Positions 2,696-62,954 are shown, numbered from the stretch's first letter. The stretch is DNA of 64,000 nucleotides from Candidatus Tepidiaquacella proteinivora (GCA_013348845.1 CP054675.1:1063501-1127500); one strand, 5' to 3'. The notes: a model not told the origin generated them from the letters alone. Program-made: numbers and translations.

Positions 2696-3280
2696 GTGGA
2701 TAAGAAAAAATTTATAGAAGATTCTTTAAAAGAAAGCGCTGAAATAAAAATTTCAGTAATTAAACATTGCATAAATCAGATAATTGAAGTATCAGACTTA
2801 ATATGCAATTGTATAAGAAATGGGAATAAACTAATGTTATGCGGTAATGGTGGTAGTGCAGCAGATGCACAACATATTGCCACTGAATTTATGATAAGGT
2901 TAGCACACGATATTAAAAGACCTGCAATACCAGCAATAGCATTATCTACTGATTGTTCAAATTTAACTGCTGGCGGAAATGATATTGGTTTCGAAAATAT
3001 TTTTATGAGAAATGTTGAAGGTATAGGTAAGAAAGGCGATATACTAATTGGAATTTCAACAAGTGGAAATTCAATGAACATCATAAAAGCAATGCAAAAA
3101 GCAAAGGAAATGGGTATATATAGAGTCTGCTTACTCGGAATGGGAGGAGGAAAACTTATAAATGAATGTGATTTTTATATATTAATTCCTTCAAATAATG
3201 TCCAGCGGATCCAGGAAGCACATATAACCGTCGGACATATAATTACCGAACTTACAGAAAGAATATTATATAGTATTTAA
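2696..3280 (+). CDS. gmhA: Phosphoheptose isomerase (sedoheptulose-7-phosphate isomerase)
   Basis: This 194-residue SIS-fold protein matches GmhA, which makes the D-glycero-D-manno-heptose-7-phosphate used for the LPS inner core. The characteristic CGNGGSAADAQHIATEF loop, the GISTSGNS phosphosugar-binding motif and the C-terminal QEAHITVGHIITE helix are all present. The start is GTG at 2696, with no ATG upstream before the kdtA stop 11 bases away, so translational coupling to kdtA is plausible. It fits the GT9 heptosyltransferase-type genes downstream on the other strand. A related SIS paralogue is possible but less likely. Confidence 0.88.
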   Translation: MDKKKFIEDSLKESAEIKISVIKHCINQIIEVSDLICNCIRNGNKLMLCGNGGSAADAQHIATEFMIRLAHDIKRPAIPAIALSTDCSNLTAGGNDIGFENIFMRNVEGIGKKGDILIGISTSGNSMNIIKAMQKAKEMGIYRVCLLGMGGGKLINECDFYILIPSNNVQRIQEAHITVGHIITELTERILYSI

Positions 3281-3296
3281 AATTAATTTTTATTTA

Positions 3297-5081
3297 TTAT
3301 TGATAAATTTCAAATGGATACTTGACAGGATAATACCAGGTATCCTCTTTATTTTTACATGAGAAGAAAAATCTTAATTTATTAAGATTATCAATATTTT
3401 CCAATGTAACAGTATATAAACCTGAATTATTCCCATCATTATTTAATTCTACGATATCCATAACTTTGGGGATAAAGTTATCATTTCCATCTTCAGTTGT
3501 GTACCAGATTTTTATAGTCTCTTGTTCTATTATACTTTTTGAAGCAACAGAAATACTGATTTTAACTTTATTACCTTCAATTTCAACCTGTGGTGAATTA
3601 CTCCATGCAGGACCCCAATATGTAATAGCTTTATACGCATTAATCAAACCCCAGCCATAAATATTATCAGGATTTCCAGCTCTATCGGCTGTATTTCTTA
3701 ATGCTTCCCTGACTTGCATTGGAGTTAATTCGGGATGAGCAGATAAAATCAGCGCGCATACTCCGGCAGTCAGAGGACAAGAAAATGAGGTACCATTCAT
3801 TCCACCATAAGTTGAATCGTTCCCAGTTAAGTTCTTACCGAGGGCAACAAAATTTCTAACTCCCGGAGCCACTACATCAGGTTTAATTCTTCCGTCAGGA
3901 GTCGGACCATTTGAACTAAAACTTGCAATTTCACCATTCAAATCAACAGCACCTACAGATATAACTGAATCTCCATCGCCCGGCGAACCTAATGAAGGAG
4001 GAATTGTCTGACCATTATTTCCGGCAGATGCTACAAAACATACTCCAAGATATACTGCTCTTGCCGCAGCAAGCGTAGTGATTGCAACTCTACCAGTATA
4101 ATGTTCATAAAGATAAGAATTTTTACTAAAAGGTTCATCAAAACCTCTGTAGCCAAGTGAAGTTGAAATAACATCTACACCTTTTGCCTCAGCCCATTCA
4201 GCAGCTTCAAGGAAGAAATCCTCTTCCATTGGAGTTTCTGTTGGTACATATTCTGTTTTCGCAAGTATAATTTCGGAACCAAAAGCTGGTCCAATTAATT
4301 TCCCTGGCTTAAATCCTGCAAGATTCGAAAGAGTTGCAGTCCCGTGTGTACTCTGGTCAATTTTATCAACATAAGTTTGACTTAGTTCATTGCGTGTATT
4401 TGGATCTTTGTTAATAAAATCATACTCATCGATGATTTTTAAATCTCTTGTGCATTCATGGTCACGCCATTCAAAACCACTATCGAAACTTGCAATTAAA
4501 ACACCTTTACCAGTAATTCCTAAATTATGAACCATCGGAACATTAATCATCTTCATTTGTTTGTATGATTTTCCATAATCATAAACATCATTCAGAACAT
4601 CTCTTTCAACTTCAAAAACACTTACAATATCAGTGATTTCAGGTTTAACAAATTCAAAAGAATTTTTATAATTTTTACCTAATAATTTTATCTCAGAAAC
4701 ATAATCAAGATTTTTGACTAACTCTAATTGCGAAGCAGTGAGATATGCGCTAACACCATTAAACCATCTTGACTTTGAGATGATATTGATTCCTTTGCCT
4801 GATAAGTCATCTATGTATTTTTGTTCAATTGGCAAATCCCAGAAATCAACAAGTCTTTCCTCACCTAAAACTTTCATTCTTCTTTTAATTGCTCTGTCAG
4901 AAAGCATACTTTTAGCAGTTTCATAAGCATCAGAGCCGGGTTTCATTTCAGTATAATAATCATAAACGCCTTTGTCCTTAAAAATAATCCAAAATTTAGC
5001 AACAGGTTTTTCCTGTGCTAATAAAGTAAAAGCATAAAGATAAATGAATAAGAATAAAAATAACCTTGATAAGTTTTTCAT
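3297..5081 (-). CDS. Secreted subtilisin-like serine protease (S8 family)
   Basis: This 594-residue protein has a signal peptide (residues 1 to about 22, ending LLAQ). A propeptide-like region follows (about 25-135, with the FKDK...AIKRR pattern seen in S8 proteases of this phylum). The peptidase domain has the catalytic triad Asp200 (ASFDSG), His246 (STHGTA) and Ser432 (NGTSFSCP), and an oxyanion Asn near 355 (SAGNNG). The C-terminal 100 residues look like a beta-sandwich but lack a T9SS sorting domain, so the export route beyond Sec is unclear. It lies 15 bases downstream of the E2 gene, probably as the last gene of the minus-strand run, and converges on gmhA with a 16-base gap. Confidence 0.9.
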   Translation of the reverse strand: MKNLSRLFLFLFIYLYAFTLLAQEKPVAKFWIIFKDKGVYDYYTEMKPGSDAYETAKSMLSDRAIKRRMKVLGEERLVDFWDLPIEQKYIDDLSGKGINIISKSRWFNGVSAYLTASQLELVKNLDYVSEIKLLGKNYKNSFEFVKPEITDIVSVFEVERDVLNDVYDYGKSYKQMKMINVPMVHNLGITGKGVLIASFDSGFEWRDHECTRDLKIIDEYDFINKDPNTRNELSQTYVDKIDQSTHGTATLSNLAGFKPGKLIGPAFGSEIILAKTEYVPTETPMEEDFFLEAAEWAEAKGVDVISTSLGYRGFDEPFSKNSYLYEHYTGRVAITTLAAARAVYLGVCFVASAGNNGQTIPPSLGSPGDGDSVISVGAVDLNGEIASFSSNGPTPDGRIKPDVVAPGVRNFVALGKNLTGNDSTYGGMNGTSFSCPLTAGVCALILSAHPELTPMQVREALRNTADRAGNPDNIYGWGLINAYKAITYWGPAWSNSPQVEIEGNKVKISISVASKSIIEQETIKIWYTTEDGNDNFIPKVMDIVELNNDGNNSGLYTVTLENIDNLNKLRFFFSCKNKEDTWYYPVKYPFEIYQ

Positions 5082-5096
5082 TTTTATATTTTTAAT

Positions 5097-6416
5097 TTAT
5101 AAAGAATAATTCTCAAGATAATGAACGATTCTCATTAAGAATTTACCGCCAAGAGCACCATCTATTAGTCGATGGTCAAAAGAAAGAGTAAGATAAACAA
5201 TAGGTTTAATTACAACGAAATCTCCATCATCAGTTTCAAGCACAGCAGGTCTCTTTTTTACTGCTCCAACACCGAGAATTGCAATCTGAGGTTGATTAAT
5301 TATCATAGTACCTATAATATTACCGAAGATTCCATAATTAGATATAGTGAAAGTTCCTCCCTGTATTTCATCAAGTGTTAGTTTTTTAATTTTTGCTCTC
5401 TTTCCTAAATCATTAATCGCTCTTGCTAAACCAATAAGGTTTTTACCATCTGCTTCTTTAATAACAGGAACAATTAAACCGCCATTATCCATTGCAACAG
5501 CAATACCAAGATTAATTTTTTTCTTCATAATCGCTTTAAACGGGATCGTTGTATTATCTATAACAGAATTTATCAATGGAAAGTCTTTCAATGCTTTAAT
5601 AACAGCATCAGCAATAAATGGCATATAAGTCAGTTTGAAACCTTCATTCTTTTCGAATTCATCTTTCATTTTCTTTCTTATTTTATCAACGGCGCTCATA
5701 TCACACTCAGCAATTGAATTTACATGCGGAGAGGTGTTAACTGAATGAACCATATGTTCCGCCATTTTTTGTCGTATATTATCAAAATCAAATATACTAA
5801 TTCCTTCCTCATTATAATCGACAATTGGTCCTTGTTTTAATGGTTGGATAATTTCCTTCTTCTCAGGTAATGATTGTTGTTCTTTTTTTACAAAAACATC
5901 TTTTTCTTTTTCTAAACCCTTTTGGTTTATGTATTCAATTAAGTCCCTTTTAGTTACTCTTCCATTTAATCCGGAACCTTTGATGGATTCAAGCTCTGAA
6001 ATTGAAATACCTTCCTGTTTAGCAATATTCAGTACAAGCGGAGAATAAAATCGCGTCCCTTTTTCAATTTCTTCAGTTTCTGATTTTTGATCTTTTGGTA
6101 TTTCAACAAGTTTTTCTTCAACTTGTGATATTTTCTTTTCTTCGCTAACTTCAGATTTGAATTCTGTTGCTGCTGTTTCTTCTGTCTCAAGTCTGGCTAT
6201 AACCTTTCCGACTTCAACGACATCATTTACATTATAAAAAATTTCAACAAGTATTCCAGCTTCCGGGGATGGGATTTCAGTATCAACTTTATCTGTTGAA
6301 ATCTCAAGTAATGGTTCATCTTTTTCTACTCTATCCCCTACATTTTTTAACCATTTCAAAATCGTTCCTTCTAAAATTGATTCACCCATTTTAGGCATAA
6401 CTATATCTATAATCAT
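5097..6416 (-). CDS. 2-oxoacid dehydrogenase E2 component (dihydrolipoamide acyltransferase)
   Basis: This 439-residue protein has three parts: one lipoyl domain (residues 1-77, lipoylated Lys43 in STDKVDTEIPS), a peripheral subunit-binding domain (about 121-160, with SGLNGRVTKRDL) and the C-terminal acyltransferase domain ending in SFDHRLIDGA. His415 and Asp419 are the catalytic HxxxD pair. It transfers an acyl group from lipoate to CoA in a pyruvate, 2-oxoglutarate or branched-chain complex. Substrate class cannot be told from sequence alone, and no E1 or E3 gene is nearby. A strong CGGAGG ribosome site precedes the ATG. prs lies 90 bases upstream. Confidence 0.92.
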   Translation of the reverse strand: MIIDIVMPKMGESILEGTILKWLKNVGDRVEKDEPLLEISTDKVDTEIPSPEAGILVEIFYNVNDVVEVGKVIARLETEETAATEFKSEVSEEKKISQVEEKLVEIPKDQKSETEEIEKGTRFYSPLVLNIAKQEGISISELESIKGSGLNGRVTKRDLIEYINQKGLEKEKDVFVKKEQQSLPEKKEIIQPLKQGPIVDYNEEGISIFDFDNIRQKMAEHMVHSVNTSPHVNSIAECDMSAVDKIRKKMKDEFEKNEGFKLTYMPFIADAVIKALKDFPLINSVIDNTTIPFKAIMKKKINLGIAVAMDNGGLIVPVIKEADGKNLIGLARAINDLGKRAKIKKLTLDEIQGGTFTISNYGIFGNIIGTMIINQPQIAILGVGAVKKRPAVLETDDGDFVVIKPIVYLTLSFDHRLIDGALGGKFLMRIVHYLENYSL

Positions 6417-55817: not shown

Positions 55818-56678
55818 ATGATAAAATGTATCTTTTCAACTGACTTGCATGGAAATATTAAAAAGTTCGATAAATTTTTCGACTACATTTTAAAGGAAAA
55901 ACCAGATATTGTTTTCTTAGGGGGAGATATACTACCATCTGGAATTTCCGCATTTACTGGTAGTGATACAAATTCTAATTTTATTGATGGCTATCTAAAA
56001 AATAAGCTATTAACAATAAAAACTGAATTGAAAAATAATTATCCACGATTCTATACTATAATGGGTAACGATGATCCTAAAATTTATGAGGAGGATATCT
56101 TACGGTTAGATAAAGAGAATTTGCTTGAATATATAAATCAAAAAATTGTTAATTATAAAAATTATAACATAGTTGGATATAGTTATGTACCCCCTACACC
56201 ATTCTCACTTAAAGATTGGGAAAAATATGATGTATCAAGATATGTTGACCCTGGTTGCACATCTCCTGAGGAGGGTTATAGAACAGTCGAAGAACCAATC
56301 AATATAATAAGATTTTCAACTATAGAAAAAGATATCAATACACTAACAGAAAAATTATCTATTGAAAACTCAATTTTCTTATTTCACTCTCCGCCATACA
56401 AAACAAATCTGGATAGAATAAATACTCACGGAAGAATGATAGATTATGTAAAAATAGATGAAAATGTAGGCAGTATTGCTATAAAAAAATTTATAGAAGC
56501 AAAACAACCATTAATTACATTACATGGTCATATTCACGAATCAGCACAAATAAGTGGTAAATGGTATGAATTAATTGGCAGAACTATATGCATCAATGGC
56601 GCACATCAGGGGCAAGAATTAAGTATTGTAAGAATTAATATAGGAGATGAAATAAGTTTTGACAGGATTTTGATATAA
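55818..56678 (+). CDS. Calcineurin-like metallophosphoesterase
   Basis: This 286-residue cytosolic protein has the dinuclear metal-site motifs of the superfamily in order: STDLHGN (DxH), FLGGDIL (GD), MGNDDP (GND), FHSPPY (one His) and LHGHIHES (GHxH). An Asn- and Tyr-rich insert sits between the third and fourth motifs. Such enzymes hydrolyse phosphomono- or diesters; the substrate cannot be read from sequence. The gene is transcribed away from the str cluster and converges on the PPDK_N pair with a 29-base gap. Confidence 0.88.
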   Translation: MIKCIFSTDLHGNIKKFDKFFDYILKEKPDIVFLGGDILPSGISAFTGSDTNSNFIDGYLKNKLLTIKTELKNNYPRFYTIMGNDDPKIYEEDILRLDKENLLEYINQKIVNYKNYNIVGYSYVPPTPFSLKDWEKYDVSRYVDPGCTSPEEGYRTVEEPINIIRFSTIEKDINTLTEKLSIENSIFLFHSPPYKTNLDRINTHGRMIDYVKIDENVGSIAIKKFIEAKQPLITLHGHIHESAQISGKWYELIGRTICINGAHQGQELSIVRINIGDEISFDRILI

Positions 56679-56707: not shown

Positions 56708-59700
56708 TCAGAAAGTATCGAGTTTTTTTGCAGCATCTGTAACTGCACCTATTTTTAGTGCAAAACTATTTTTTTCTTCAATATCTTTATCAGTAACAAT
56801 GTGAACATCAAGTAGATTTGTTGATTTATACCCGGTTCTTTGATAATTCATTTCAGCAAGAGCGATACCCCATGCTTCAAGCCAAAGCAATAAATTATTT
56901 TTTTGTTGCTCCGTACCATCAAAATGGACGAGTAAATCTATATCACTTCCAGGCCCAGCAGTAGCATTCTTTGTGCTTCCAAATACATATAATCCTTTAA
57001 TACCAAATTTTTTCGTATCAATAACAGAAGCAATTTTTTCCACCATTCTTAAGCGCCATTTCCAATGATATTCTGCCTTTGCTGACTCTTGAGTTTCTGA
57101 ATAAACTTTGCTATCATCTTTTCCGGAGGGTTGTGTTAAATACGCTAACGCTTCATCAAGGTCTGAGTTAAGTAAAATTTTTAGTATTTCACCATTAGTT
57201 CTTTCTTTTACATCTATAACTTTAATAATATTCTCAAGGGATTTATACTCCGGTAATAAATAACATAAAATATTTTTTGATGATTTTAGAAAAATCTCAT
57301 TATATATTATTCCACTATCATCAGGATACAGAGGAATATATCTAATAGATGATTCAACTAAATCCTGAAAGAAATGGGTTCCAAAAGATAAATCAGGAAC
57401 GTAATTACCTTTCTTTTTGGCAATTTCAATTAATACAGCGGTATTGTTGATATCAGAATAAGTTACATTAACACCAAGTTTAATATCACCTCTACTTCCC
57501 CATCGGCCAGGACCCATTAGAATAAATTGCCTTTTTGGTAAAATCTTATTTAACTTTCCAACCACTCTACCTACTTCCTGTAAAGTTGTCAAATCAGAAA
57601 TTTCACTATACGCATCAGGGTCAACATAAACTATGTGTGTGATTTCCGGAATACGACCGTTAGATATATATCTATTTGCAGTAAAGATAATTTTTTCTTT
57701 TGGAACATCTTTTGGAATAGGTGACGGATTTATATCTCCGAAAGAGCTCTGAGTCCTGCATTGCAACAGGTATATATTATCTCCATCAGAAGCAAATTCG
57801 ATATCAACAGGGTGATTTACACTTTTTCTTGCAGTATTTATAATATTATGCATTACTTTCACAAAATCGGTAGAACTAATTAAATTTTCAAAAGTAGCAT
57901 ATGCATTACTCCATTCTTTCTTATAGTCTAAATTAAAACCTTTTTGTAAATGACCATCTTTATATATAGAAAAAACTTTATCAACAATAGGATATTCATC
58001 TCCATATTCTTTTAATAAATCCTTAATATCAATTGTCTCAAATGAATTCGTTTCAAGATTAATAACATCAATTTTATGAGGTGAGTATTTTATAGTTTCT
58101 TCAAAAGTTACATTTACTTTCAAACTGGGTAAGCCGGGTGAAACAAGGATGGGATAATCATCACTTGTTCTATCTACCGCTCTTGTTCCAAGACCAGGTA
58201 CTAACCTTAATAAACCATCTTCTCTTCTAATTCTCGGAGACCATCTGAATTCATTATTACTAAAAGCAACACCGGCAAATGCTGGTAAATAATATTTTCC
58301 TACTTGTTTACCCACAACCTCCTGAATAATTACTCCCATTTGTTCATTGAAATCAAGTAATCCCCTCTCTGCGCGATACTCAATAGGATCTGTATTAAAA
58401 ATGGATGCATATACTTCAGCAACTGCACTCGTTAATTCTTCAAGGCATTTCTTTTTATTTCCCTGATTTGCAACAAACAAACTTTTGTACTTCCCGGAAA
58501 ATGCAGCACCGATACCATCTTCAAGCAAAGTTGAACTTCTTACGATGAGTGGCTTATTGCCAAAATCATCAAGCATCAGTGAAAAATTCTTCAACATCTC
58601 TGGTGAAAAACTTGAGTTTTTAAATAACTGAACTATATATGGATATTCCTGCCTGATGATATCAATATTTTTATATTTGTGTTCAAATACTTCTTCAAGA
58701 TTGTTATAATGTATAAAGTCCATTAATCCATCAGAAACTATATACCAGGTGTTCGGGACTTTTAAGTTTTTGTATAAATCCGGTACTTCATTCTTTAAAA
58801 TATTTGTTGCAAGAAATAAGCCAGCAGCTTTACCCCCAAGTTTTCCATGACTATTAGGAGTAAGTATTATCTTTTTAGTCAAATTATAAAAATCTCTAAT
58901 TGTAAGATATTTTTTCGCTACACCTATATAAGAAAGTGCATCAGATAAAAATCTCCTTATCAAAGAAACCCTCAAACTTTCATCAAGTTCCGGAGCTAAC
59001 TTTACATTTGAAGGCATATCATCGACATATCTTCTAAGTAAATCAGCAAGTTCATTTAATGAACTCCCTTGATCTTCGAGTTTTCTTAATAAATAACTTG
59101 ATTTATCCTCTTGAATCCATTTTTCAAGTTTGGTTAATATTTCCTCTTCACTTAAATGTTCAGATGCAATTCTAAAAACTTCATCGGTAATTTCTTTGAA
59201 CTTTATTTTAGCAAGTGGTTTATTATCATCAATACCTTCAATAAGCTCCTCCATATCTTTAACCCCAACATCCTGTAATAAAGAACTCGCTTCTTTAACA
59301 CCACTCCAATATAAATGATTCATCATTTTCCTTGCAATCAAAGTATATAGATTTCTGTCGGTTCCTTTTAATAAATCAACTATTGCACGCCATTTACCAT
59401 CTTCCATTTTCTCAAAAACCTTATCTTCTTCAGGTGAATATTTATTGAAGAACCCTTTTAGATTTTTATAATATATATATTGCCCTATTTTCTCAGCGAT
59501 TGTATTTAGCAGTTTCCGCTCTTCTTTCAGAAAAGGTCCTTCATCTGCTTTGGGTAAATTCTGCTTATAATAAACATTTATCTTTCCGAAAATCTTATCT
59601 TCAATTTTTATTTCTGCAGATTGTACCCATTCTGTAAATTTAAAATCACTTGAATAATATTCTTTATCATTAAGCACAATCATTACACAACAATATTGAG

Positions 59701-59866
59701 GATATTGCCAGGATTCTCTCACAGTTTCTAATACTTTACTCATAACATCTTTAAGTGGAGAATCAAAATCTCTCAGTATCTCTTCAACTTTATATAGGCA
59801 ATTAAGTTCTTTGACTCTTTCCCTCATTTCGTGCATAATACTTTCAACAGAAATTATTTTACTCAT
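56708..59866 (-). CDS. Multidomain protein: GAF-like, PEP/pyruvate-binding (PPDK_N) and nucleotidyltransferase domains
   Basis: This 1052-residue soluble protein has a GAF-like sensory fold at residues 1-135 (CCVMIVLNDKEYYSSDF) and a helical region at 140-330. The ATP-grasp PPDK_N domain spans about 340-705 (GKLGGKAAGLFLATNIL; LIVRSSTLLEDG; VIIQEVVGK; DIEFASDGDNIYLLQCRTQ). A conserved module at about 735-850 has GPGRWGSRGDIKLGV and SFGTHFFQDL. The minimal nucleotidyltransferase domain at 955-1030 has GSTKNATAGPGSDIDLLV and a further Asp in LLDVHIV. The phosphohistidine swivel and PEP/pyruvate TIM-barrel domains of PPDK are missing, so it is not a normal dikinase. Its start overlaps the partner gene by four bases. 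Function unknown. Confidence 0.85.
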   Translation of the reverse strand: MSKIISVESIMHEMRERVKELNCLYKVEEILRDFDSPLKDVMSKVLETVRESWQYPQYCCVMIVLNDKEYYSSDFKFTEWVQSAEIKIEDKIFGKINVYYKQNLPKADEGPFLKEERKLLNTIAEKIGQYIYYKNLKGFFNKYSPEEDKVFEKMEDGKWRAIVDLLKGTDRNLYTLIARKMMNHLYWSGVKEASSLLQDVGVKDMEELIEGIDDNKPLAKIKFKEITDEVFRIASEHLSEEEILTKLEKWIQEDKSSYLLRKLEDQGSSLNELADLLRRYVDDMPSNVKLAPELDESLRVSLIRRFLSDALSYIGVAKKYLTIRDFYNLTKKIILTPNSHGKLGGKAAGLFLATNILKNEVPDLYKNLKVPNTWYIVSDGLMDFIHYNNLEEVFEHKYKNIDIIRQEYPYIVQLFKNSSFSPEMLKNFSLMLDDFGNKPLIVRSSTLLEDGIGAAFSGKYKSLFVANQGNKKKCLEELTSAVAEVYASIFNTDPIEYRAERGLLDFNEQMGVIIQEVVGKQVGKYYLPAFAGVAFSNNEFRWSPRIRREDGLLRLVPGLGTRAVDRTSDDYPILVSPGLPSLKVNVTFEETIKYSPHKIDVINLETNSFETIDIKDLLKEYGDEYPIVDKVFSIYKDGHLQKGFNLDYKKEWSNAYATFENLISSTDFVKVMHNIINTARKSVNHPVDIEFASDGDNIYLLQCRTQSSFGDINPSPIPKDVPKEKIIFTANRYISNGRIPEITHIVYVDPDAYSEISDLTTLQEVGRVVGKLNKILPKRQFILMGPGRWGSRGDIKLGVNVTYSDINNTAVLIEIAKKKGNYVPDLSFGTHFFQDLVESSIRYIPLYPDDSGIIYNEIFLKSSKNILCYLLPEYKSLENIIKVIDVKERTNGEILKILLNSDLDEALAYLTQPSGKDDSKVYSETQESAKAEYHWKWRLRMVEKIASVIDTKKFGIKGLYVFGSTKNATAGPGSDIDLLVHFDGTEQQKNNLLLWLEAWGIALAEMNYQRTGYKSTNLLDVHIVTDKDIEEKNSFALKIGAVTDAAKKLDTF

Positions 59867-61599
59867 TTTAAAATAACTCCTTCTGCTTTTCTACCATCAA
59901 CTTTAATAATTAAAGGTTTTTTTAATTTTATATGCTTCGTATATTCACCTTCATATATTACTGTATTATTATCTAACCAATTCCAATCAAGTTTTTCTAT
60001 ATAATCAGGCTTCAATGAGAAATATAACACTTCAAAACTATTTATGTTATGAAAAAAATGCGAACCCTGACTAAGTTCAACATTAAATTGTGGAAGCATT
60101 GCTTCTATAATCACTTTTGCGTTAGAAATCTGCCCCCACTCAACAGGAATACCAAGCCATGGATCTGTACTACCCCATCTACCATACCCTATTAATAAAT
60201 ATTTCTTATTCCTTTCGCGAAAGCCCTTATTAATTTGTTCGATTTCAACTGCAATTTTTTGAGAATATTTTATATCAAAATTATCTGACTTAACAAAAAC
60301 AATCTCATCAATATAGTCAATTACTCCGTTTCCAAGAACTCTGTTTGAGTAGCAAAACAAATCTTTATTTTTCAAATCTTCCTCTGTTACTTCAACAATT
60401 TCATTCGAAACAACCATCGGTCTAACTTGTAAAAATCCCAATCGAGGTGATAGTTTATTATCTTTCTTAAGAGTAATAGCAAACTCAATTTCAACAGCAG
60501 TTTCAAGTGATTTCTCACTTATTTCTAAAAGTTTTTTAATGATTTCATTTAGGTTAATATAATTTAATTCTAATATAGGAGCAAAGTTAATAATTCTTGC
60601 TCCTTTAATTCCAATTCCAGGTTTTACTCTATCTGAAGCAGCATCATAAGTAGATGCAACCAAATTTAATGTACCATCATATTCAGCTTCATTAATATCA
60701 GATTTTATCATATATTCAACTTCATTAATTGGATCATATAACACCGATTTTTCCATATTAATAGCCCAAAATGTTCTTTGAGTATTATCTATAAGTTCTT
60801 TAATACTTGTAAATGGAGGCGGATTTTTGGGATAAGCAGGACAATATGTCCATGAAATACCACCATCAACAATTGTTTTCCCAAGTCCGAGTGCAAGATT
60901 TACAACCCCATCTTCAGGTTTAGATTTTCCAAATGTATAATAATTATAAGACCGTGCTACGCCTGATATTTCCGGATAAAACTTGTTATGAAATTTAGAC
61001 CCAACAACCTCCTGAATTATCACAGCCATTTTCTCGTCTTTTGAACTTTTTCCTATACTTGTAATGTAATCTTTCGCCTTTTTAAAAAATGTAGATGCAT
61101 AAACAAGTTTAATTGCTTCTATTAATTTACTAAATCTTGTTTGTAAGTCAGGTTGATTGTTGGAAATCATTTTAGTTGAGTAAATACCAGCAAAAGGTTC
61201 ATACAATGCATCTTCAAGCATACTTGAAGAACGAACCGCAAGCGGTAATCTAACATTCTCCACAATAGACCTTAAATCACCAACTAAACCCACAGGTAAA
61301 GTAGCTTTCATAAACTTATGAGCGATCATCGTATCATTTTCATCTGATAAAGCAACATCGTATAGATTATTAGTTTGCATAAATTCATCAAAAAAATCCG
61401 TTGTAATAACAGTAAGTCGAGGGATATTCACAATAAATTCTTTAAACTCCTTTTCGTTTTCCTTTAAAAATTTTCTGATAAAAGCTAATCCTTTTGCTTT
61501 TCCACCAATTTCCCCTAATCCAATTAATGTAAAATCATCATCAGCTTCAAAAAACTTTCTATTAAAAGAAGAGAAGGAAATATTATTATTATTGTTCAT
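59863..61599 (-). CDS. PEP/pyruvate-binding (PPDK_N) protein, partner of the downstream multidomain gene
   Basis: This 578-residue protein has a PPDK_N ATP-grasp domain at about 25-400: LGEIGGKAKGLAFI, LAVRSSSMLEDA, AVIIQEVVGSKF, VNLALGLGKTIVDGG and AVEIEFAITLKK ... GFLQVRPMV. The C-terminal module at about 425-535 carries GYGRWGSTDPWLGIPV and LSQGSHFFHNI, matching the same module in the downstream 1052-residue protein. Like its partner it has no swivel His domain or PEP-binding barrel. The genes overlap by ATGA, so the products are probably made in step and may form a complex. The reaction is unknown. Confidence 0.83.
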   Translation of the reverse strand: MNNNNNISFSSFNRKFFEADDDFTLIGLGEIGGKAKGLAFIRKFLKENEKEFKEFIVNIPRLTVITTDFFDEFMQTNNLYDVALSDENDTMIAHKFMKATLPVGLVGDLRSIVENVRLPLAVRSSSMLEDALYEPFAGIYSTKMISNNQPDLQTRFSKLIEAIKLVYASTFFKKAKDYITSIGKSSKDEKMAVIIQEVVGSKFHNKFYPEISGVARSYNYYTFGKSKPEDGVVNLALGLGKTIVDGGISWTYCPAYPKNPPPFTSIKELIDNTQRTFWAINMEKSVLYDPINEVEYMIKSDINEAEYDGTLNLVASTYDAASDRVKPGIGIKGARIINFAPILELNYINLNEIIKKLLEISEKSLETAVEIEFAITLKKDNKLSPRLGFLQVRPMVVSNEIVEVTEEDLKNKDLFCYSNRVLGNGVIDYIDEIVFVKSDNFDIKYSQKIAVEIEQINKGFRERNKKYLLIGYGRWGSTDPWLGIPVEWGQISNAKVIIEAMLPQFNVELSQGSHFFHNINSFEVLYFSLKPDYIEKLDWNWLDNNTVIYEGEYTKHIKLKKPLIIKVDGRKAEGVILK

Positions 61600-61611
61600 A
61601 AATATTAGTTT

Positions 61612-61648
61612 ATTAAATAAAAAACTCCCGATGAAGCATCGGGAGTTT
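61612..61648 (-). terminator. Rho-independent terminator after glutamate dehydrogenase
   Basis: On the minus strand AAACTCCCGATG pairs with CATCGGGAGTTT (3-base gap at the tip) and a T-rich tract follows. It separates gdhA from the PPDK_N pair downstream, which therefore needs its own promoter or read-through. Confidence 0.92.
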
Positions 61649-61667
61649 CAATAACAACATTTAGGAA

Positions 61668-62954
61668 TTAAACCCAACCTCTTTCCTTGCATGCCTGTGC
61701 TACTCTATCTATAGCAATAACATAAGCAGCATCTCTCATATAAAGTTTTTTGGTTCGAGCAAGTTCACTCACTGAAAGGAATGCGGAGGTCATCTTCACA
61801 TCAAGCTTACTTAAAACCTCTTCTTTTTCCCAATAATAATTCATATTACTCTGCACTTGTTCGAAGTAACTACATGTTACACCACCTGCATTTGCAAGAA
61901 AATCCGGAATCATAAATATTCCTCTTTCCTTAATAACAGCATCTGCTTCAGGCGTAGTTGGACCATTAGCACCTTCTGCAATTACTTTGACATTTTTTTG
62001 AATCTTTTTAACTGTTTCAGAATTAATCTGATTTTCTAATGCACAGGGAAGTAATATATCTACATCCTGCTCTATCCATGCATCACCGTGAAGAATTTCA
62101 TAACCAAGTGCTTTTGCTTTATCTTTATTAATCCCTCCGAATTGGTCTGTAATACTTAATAACTTGGGAAAATCTATTCCGTCCTTTTTCAAGAATGTAT
62201 AAGAAGTTTGGTCATCCTGGTCCCAACAAGAAACTGCAATTACTGTACCTCCAAGTTTAAGATATAATTCAATAGCATACTGGGCTACATTTCCAAAACC
62301 CTGAACGCTTGCTTTTGTTTTCTTTGGATCAATTCCCAATTCTTTCAATGCTTCTCTTAATGTAAATATAACTCCGTAACCTGTCGCTTCTGTTCTACCT
62401 AAAGAACCGCCCATCCCTACTGGTTTTCCGGTAATTAAACCAGGATATTTGTTACCGGTAATAATCTCATACTCATCTAACATCCATAACATATGTTGAG
62501 CAGATGTCATAACATCAGGAGCAGGTACATCTCTCAACGGTCCAATATCCTTACTTAGTTGTCTTACCCAACCTCTACATATTTGTTCTTGTTCTTTCAT
62601 ACTTAAGTGATGCGGATCACATATAACACCACCTTTACTTCCTCCAAGTGGTATGTCCACAACTGCTGTTTTCCAGGTCATCCACATTGCAAGGGCTCTA
62701 ACAGTATCAATGGTTTCTTGGGGGTGAAATCGAATTCCACCTTTACCTGGACCTCGTGCGTCGTTGTGTTGAACACGAAATCCCCTGAATACCTTTACAG
62801 TACCATCATCCATTTTTACCGGTATTGAAAAATGATACTCACGCATTGGGTTTCTTAGTAAATCTTTAGTTGCCTGATCGAGATTCAGCATTTCAGCAAC
62901 ACTATCAAACTGCTTTTGAGCCATCTCGAACGCATTGAAATTTTTGCTTGCCAT
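61668..62954 (-). CDS. gdhA: Glutamate dehydrogenase (Glu/Leu/Phe/Val family)
   Basis: This 428-residue enzyme interconverts glutamate and 2-oxoglutarate with ammonia. Conserved parts are GPGKGGIRFHPQ (substrate-binding Lys), KTAVVDIPLGGSKGGV, the catalytic-Asp segment DVPAPDVMT, TGKPVGMGGSLGR and the Rossmann region ASVQGFGNVAQYA. The late segment IVPDFLANAGGV-like (MIPDFLANAGGVTCSYFE) is also present. Length fits the hexameric ~420-residue class. Coenzyme preference is not assigned. GAGGA lies ahead of the ATG, and a strong terminator follows. Confidence 0.95.
   Translation of the reverse strand: MASKNFNAFEMAQKQFDSVAEMLNLDQATKDLLRNPMREYHFSIPVKMDDGTVKVFRGFRVQHNDARGPGKGGIRFHPQETIDTVRALAMWMTWKTAVVDIPLGGSKGGVICDPHHLSMKEQEQICRGWVRQLSKDIGPLRDVPAPDVMTSAQHMLWMLDEYEIITGNKYPGLITGKPVGMGGSLGRTEATGYGVIFTLREALKELGIDPKKTKASVQGFGNVAQYAIELYLKLGGTVIAVSCWDQDDQTSYTFLKKDGIDFPKLLSITDQFGGINKDKAKALGYEILHGDAWIEQDVDILLPCALENQINSETVKKIQKNVKVIAEGANGPTTPEADAVIKERGIFMIPDFLANAGGVTCSYFEQVQSNMNYYWEKEEVLSKLDVKMTSAFLSVSELARTKKLYMRDAAYVIAIDRVAQACKERGWV

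Follow-up and report, generated by a model that had tools for sequence, protein, structure and literature searches.

Among dikinase-type proteins without a phosphoenolpyruvate (PEP)/pyruvate barrel, VadK (Rv1127c) of Mycobacterium tuberculosis, which is derived from pyruvate phosphate dikinase (PPDK), autophosphorylates, binds PrpC and PrpD of the methylcitrate cycle and fine-tunes flux (PMC13400623). Other characterised barrel-less relatives include the small-molecule kinase rifampin phosphotransferase (Rph; PMC4844700) and the two-component HpeHI (PMC12167813). The locus described here lies in a 64,000-nucleotide stretch of the genome of Candidatus Tepidiaquacella proteinivora (GCA_013348845.1, CP054675.1:1063501-1127500), the whole of which is called the window, where two overlapping genes at positions 56,708 to 61,599, referred to as LARGE and SMALL, encode dikinase-like proteins. 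LARGE, usually together with SMALL, may be a barrel-less dikinase turned into a signal-gated device dedicated to regulating the glutamate dehydrogenase (GDH) encoded next to it, a reading to which we assign a probability of roughly 50%. Its closest precedent is VadK, from which it is clear that regulation of metabolism lies within the reach of a barrel-less dikinase.

Glutamate dehydrogenase beside LARGE

The link of LARGE with GDH is strongly supported. The initial annotation had taken the location beside gdhA as a hint at central nitrogen and carbon control, and this hint has become the strongest signal of the locus, with the correction that the constant partner of LARGE is GDH and not the second dikinase. 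A search across genomes of bacteria and archaea gave a sample of 80 LARGE loci at 49-57% identity over nearly the full length, labelled as belonging to more than 15 phyla, although labels of metagenome-assembled genomes can be wrong. Neighbours were counted by tblastn; open reading frame (ORF) calling undercounts GDH, with spurious antisense ORFs in GC-rich loci. By this count, 65 of the 73 testable loci have GDH in the same orientation as LARGE and no more than 1 kb upstream of it, and 3 more have it close by. With regard to the 5 testable loci without a nearby GDH, 4 of the genomes carry that GDH elsewhere, the exception being the genome of locus L035. Since neighbourhoods of this kind are found across many bacterial phyla, LARGE and SMALL are probably a dedicated control device for GDH.

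Within the phylum, LARGE (more than 900 bits) and GDH (at least 70% identity) were found in an identical set of 21 out of 247 genomes and in no others (Fisher p 6e-31, with the total entered as 248, a difference of no consequence, and with species that are not independent). When present on one contig, the two genes are contiguous or split only by SMALL, apart from one case in which SMALL and a further paralogue with its own NADP-type GDH, discussed below, stand between them. The closest relatives agree with this link, except for two genomes (G007 and G030) that are seemingly contig-end cases.

The gdhA gene of the window (61668 to 62954, minus strand) encodes a GDH of 428 aa that belongs, by its NCBIfam match and its co-occurrence, to a subfamily strictly co-occurring with LARGE. 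Its best NCBIfam match is GdhA_Arch (E 1e-145), yet the 486 bits obtained are below the cut-off of 750, and the solved structures closest to it in sequence belong to the 1euz/1gtm/2tmg GDH type. Compared with other GDHs in an alignment, the LARGE-linked enzymes present a conserved six-residue insert (residues 243-248) directly past the second strand of the dinucleotide-binding fold, together with unvarying substitutions that include W293, Q296, Q366, N370 and N372. The insert is near the place where such folds set coenzyme choice. Many subfamily-specific residues were found, none of which could be named as a modification site; they would fit a co-evolved partner, which does not in itself prove contact. 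The tree-distance correlation reaches 0.69 for LARGE and GDH and 0.71 for LARGE and SMALL, values that come with no organism-tree baseline.

The idea that LARGE and SMALL always form a pair was rejected: SMALL adjoins LARGE in 58 of the 77 testable loci (tblastn), and LARGE often stands without it, in which case GDH is usually directly upstream of LARGE. The occurrence of LARGE beside gdhA without SMALL indicates that the pair is common and not obligatory. In locus L036, a Type ISP restriction-modification gene (3008-6217) is located between gdhA and SMALL.

A barrel-less dikinase core with appended domains

Both minus-strand ORFs were confirmed at the annotated positions, with an overlap of 4 bp. 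LARGE (56708 to 59866, 1052 aa) comprises a GAF domain, a helical region, an ATP-grasp domain (PPDK_N), a swivel-like module and a nucleotidyltransferase (NTase), and SMALL (59863 to 61599, 578 aa) comprises an ATP-grasp domain (PPDK_N) and a swivel-like module. Pfam recovers PPDK_N, as annotated, in both proteins, at residues 336-721 of LARGE (57704 to 58861, minus strand; E 4e-53) and at residues 21-400 of SMALL (60400 to 61539, minus strand; E 5e-38). The stated lack of a PEP/pyruvate barrel also stands, with no Pfam match for it in either protein; SMALL has no space for one, and in LARGE it is the NTase that comes after the module. Without the barrel, a PPDK-style PEP reaction is not possible. 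A PHROGs search gave no match.

The key residues of the ATP-grasp domain, matched by motif to K22, R92, E323, Q335 and R337 of PPDK, are unvarying in all 75 LARGE sequences (K346, R443, E690, Q702 and R704) and in all 49 SMALL-type sequences (K34, R123, E372, Q391 and R393), so that both proteins, judged by these residues, look able to use ATP. These data bear on the idea that LARGE and SMALL are ordinary or decaying relatives of PEP synthase or PPDK, or a GDH assembly factor, with no distinct chemistry. Such an origin would agree with Pfam recognising only PPDK_N of the dikinase parts and with the presence in the host genome of a separate complete PPDK with swivel and barrel sequence, but the unvarying catalytic residues and an identity of about 50% across phyla point to strong selection, and the missing barrel precludes the PEP reaction, which makes this idea very unlikely.

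The C-terminal GRWGS...G[ST]HFF module had been described as common to both proteins, and a profile-profile comparison of SMALL with LARGE bears this out (probability 99.3%, E 1e-20). It occupies residues 722-912 of LARGE (57131 to 57703, minus strand), with GPGRWGS (R788) and SFGTHFF (H831), and residues 402-578 of SMALL (59866 to 60396, minus strand), with GYGRWGS (R474) and SQGSHFF (H514); both assignments come from VIA alignments of predicted models. The accompanying claim that the swivel domain is absent is probably incorrect, since the predicted structures of both proteins superpose on PEP synthase and PPDK past the ATP-grasp domain. The AlphaFold2 model of SMALL (mean predicted local distance difference test score 86.8, predicted template modelling score 0.86) was aligned by VIA-align over its residues 11-578 to residues 4-465 of PEP synthase 2ols (365 residues, 4.5 A, Z 25.5) and over residues 12-578 to residues 6-505 of PPDK 1dik (353 residues), compared with 277 residues aligned to the ATP-grasp-only chain 5hv6_A. 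Similarly, the LARGE model (scores of 83.2 and 0.68) was aligned over residues 306-912 to residues 15-467 of 2ols (367 residues, 4.3 A, Z 24.2). The aligned residues beyond the ATP-grasp domain come from the module, which thus occupies the place of the phosphohistidine domain of PEP synthase and PPDK. Furthermore, the module histidine is unvarying (H514 in 49 of 49 SMALL-type and H831 in 75 of 75 LARGE sequences) and is found in the predicted models at a helix start, after a strand and a loop. The catalytic histidine of PPDK takes the same helix-start position in the swivel fold. The end of the SMALL module also shows a VDGR..GV pattern that resembles, by eye, the end of a canonical swivel domain. 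The module is therefore likely, on the predicted models, to be a strongly divergent swivel domain with a transfer histidine.

With regard to the sensory part, the N-terminal GAF-like domain of LARGE (residues 1-141; 59444 to 59866, minus strand), which has no Pfam match, is upheld by a fold match to the GAF chain 3cit (VIA Z 13.9, 126 residues), and most rows past rank 15 of the same search are further GAF chains. Sensor histidine kinases with a GAF-like region similar to that of LARGE, each accompanied by its own response regulator, are encoded shortly upstream of gdhA at three loci (L073 2560-4364, L066 1550-4104 and L056 890-4142), which suggests that transcription and enzyme control may both respond to a single ligand.

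The annotated NTase at the C-terminus of LARGE (residues 930-1049; 56720 to 57079, minus strand) is matched by PF01909 above the cut-off (residues 953-991, E 3e-8). The Pol-beta NTase motif is present (G963, S964, D975 and D977, with D1020 as third Asp) and is intact in 71 of 75 LARGE proteins, and the region gives a Foldseek fold match to 2rff (E 0.03). Such conservation, together with a neighbouring metallophosphoesterase that could serve as an eraser, would agree with the NTase being the main activity, in which case LARGE would place a nucleotide on GDH or on some other protein, much as GlnE/GlnD do in controlling glutamine synthetase and PII, and the dikinase part would be a nucleotide sensor or power switch. 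The distribution of the domain makes this improbable. Among the LARGE proteins of the phylum sample, one breaks off within the NTase (L158 3112-6144) and another ends ahead of it (L159 9598-11934), a further protein has a mutated motif (L098 5764-8910), and these genomes hold the GDH; SMALL and the receiver-type paralogue described below are linked to GDH yet have no NTase, and the ATP-grasp and module residues tested are all unvarying in LARGE. The persistence of altered LARGE proteins in GDH-holding genomes indicates that what stays constant is the dikinase core. The L159 protein also lacks the GAF domain. A type VII (HEPN-MNT) toxin-antitoxin assignment of the NTase was discarded: the domain is the end of a 1052-aa protein, the MntA model reaches 21.9 of 60 bits, far under its cut-off, and the conserved neighbours are GDH and the metallophosphoesterase, not a HEPN partner.

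A proposed route to GDH control

Besides LARGE and SMALL, the host genome encodes a further barrel-less paralogue (991 aa), in which Pfam recognises a receiver domain and a second receiver-like region is probable. This third paralogue, called the REC type, combines a receiver-like N-terminal region, PPDK_N and a GRWGT module, and its gene directly follows an NADP-type GDH gene (L003 991-3966, minus strand, and L157 6445-10868). In 34 of 42 cases the REC type is encoded less than 700 bp from an NADP-specific GDH (PRK09414, above cut-off), for the most part directly behind it in the same orientation; of the 34 genomes with a REC type, 33 have this NADP-specific GDH. As LARGE is found beside one GDH and the REC type beside the NADP-type enzyme, two paralogous dikinases each adjoin a different GDH. 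In nine cases another GDH, with about 50% identity to that of the window, comes after the REC type, and at locus L160 the genes for GDH, NADP-GDH, REC type, SMALL and LARGE stand in a row. At loci L154 and L155, a PAS histidine kinase and a LuxR-type response regulator are encoded between two GDH/REC-type units, after which comes another GDH.

On the other side of LARGE, the metallophosphoesterase gene (55818 to 56678, plus strand; 286 aa, PF00149 E 8e-11) is convergent with it and encodes a candidate eraser or partner. Of 70 testable loci, 47 have such a gene at most 700 bp from LARGE, in convergent orientation in 45 cases, and GDH and the metallophosphoesterase are the only conserved neighbours of LARGE. 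Between gdhA and SMALL, the annotated terminator corresponds to a terminator-like hairpin (61621 to 61649, minus strand) with a 13-pair stem, 6 G-C pairs and a T-rich tail, on a consensus match only.

An ATP-dependent, barrel-less transfer system with sensory input and a tie to nitrogen metabolism, as first proposed for this locus, is supported by the ATP-grasp domain, the GAF domain and the GDH link. In the chemistry that we infer for LARGE and SMALL, the ATP-grasp domain would bind Mg-ATP and phosphorylate the unvarying histidine of the module, the divergent swivel of the predicted structures. Since neither protein has an acceptor domain for PEP/pyruvate, rifampin or glucan, the phosphohistidine would then act on another protein, most likely the GDH encoded alongside, either by handing over the phosphoryl group or through binding that depends on phosphorylation. 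A small ligand sensed by the GAF domain would set the activity of LARGE, the C-terminal NTase could add a second modification or a nucleotide-dependent switch in most lineages, not all, and the adjacent metallophosphoesterase might conceivably reverse one of the marks. The REC-type paralogue, given its constant gene neighbour, may act likewise on the NADP-type GDH. The complete scheme, namely post-translational GDH control in many phyla by a GAF-gated dikinase pair acting through a cryptic phosphohistidine swivel, with a nucleotide mark set by the NTase, a metallophosphoesterase eraser and a REC version for the NADP-type GDH, is tentative and, taken as a whole, somewhat unlikely.

Several observations weigh against LARGE and SMALL being a GDH regulator of this kind. 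SMALL is absent from many loci, and several of the genomes that hold LARGE and gdhA without it lack any SMALL or REC-type relative. A few LARGE proteins have an NTase that is lost, truncated or motif-less, and the tree-distance correlation of metallophosphoesterase and GDH is not above chance. At the sequence level, the Pfam scan of the LARGE and SMALL proteins of the window detected no PEP-utiliser swivel domain, PF00391 was found in 0 of 43 SMALL proteins even at a relaxed threshold, and an hhalign comparison of the modules of both proteins with the swivel domains of PPDK yielded probabilities of 0.1-0.3%, in a setting of little power that also missed the relationship between the ATP-grasp domains of SMALL and PPDK. 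As sequence methods leave the swivel relationship undetected, the identity of the module is likely and short of proven.

Additionally, gene linkage does not distinguish between regulation and participation in the same pathway as an enzyme. An enzyme of glutamate/2-oxoglutarate metabolism, in which a small molecule, be it a 2-oxo acid, glutamate or a coenzyme, takes over the phosphoryl group from the histidine and is itself supplied or consumed by GDH, would fit the linkage equally well and would show the same enzyme-like, unvarying catalytic residues. Rph and HpeHI, both barrel-less, act on small molecules, so that an enzymatic role stays the main rival. It is nonetheless an unlikely one: the barrel is not replaced by any recognised substrate-binding domain, the GAF or receiver domains of LARGE and the REC type are typical of regulators, and conserved neighbours other than GDH and the metallophosphoesterase are missing.

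Comparison with known systems

In line with the initial annotation, we found no characterised family to which both proteins belong, and searches of open-licence papers gave no description of a dikinase-GDH system. In the GlnE/GlnD systems, Pol-beta-type NTases control nitrogen assimilation by targeting glutamine synthetase and PII, and a dikinase core is absent. The locus described here resembles them in having a Pol-beta-type NTase tied to a nitrogen-assimilation enzyme and a sensory input, with the modification itself being putative.

Rph, a barrel-less dikinase with a swivel, is the best structural match for the ATP-grasp domain (Z 25), and the match to it, like those to PEP synthase and PPDK, extends over both the ATP-grasp and the swivel part, but it has a rifampin-binding domain, a small-molecule substrate and its swivel at the far C-terminus, and neither GAF nor NTase. 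HpeHI is likewise a dikinase split over two proteins, and HpeI matches the ATP-grasp domain (Z 17-19). However, HpeI is the ATP-grasp protein and HpeH carries the swivel and substrate domains (PMC12167813), whereas LARGE and SMALL each contain both an ATP-grasp domain and a swivel-like module.

VadK shares with LARGE and SMALL an ATP-grasp domain and the absence of the PEP/pyruvate barrel, and its phosphohistidine domain would have a counterpart in their swivel-like module, as predicted from structure. It binds metabolic enzymes that are encoded nearby. Conversely, VadK corresponds to a canonical PPDK that is truncated, has no sensory domains and serves the methylcitrate cycle, whereas the putative swivel of LARGE and SMALL is not recognisable by sequence, the inputs are GAF or REC domains, an NTase is present, two subunits are usual and the partner would be GDH. 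The joining of a GAF or REC input with a cryptic swivel, an NTase and GDH as the partner appears to be new. GDH is a main junction of carbon and nitrogen metabolism, and if the regulatory reading is correct, many bacteria beyond the usual model organisms would control it through a dikinase-type module of its own, and a large group of proteins so far recognised just as PPDK_N would acquire a function. VadK would then be one case of a wider principle, by which dikinases that lose the barrel are turned into regulators of a neighbouring metabolic enzyme.

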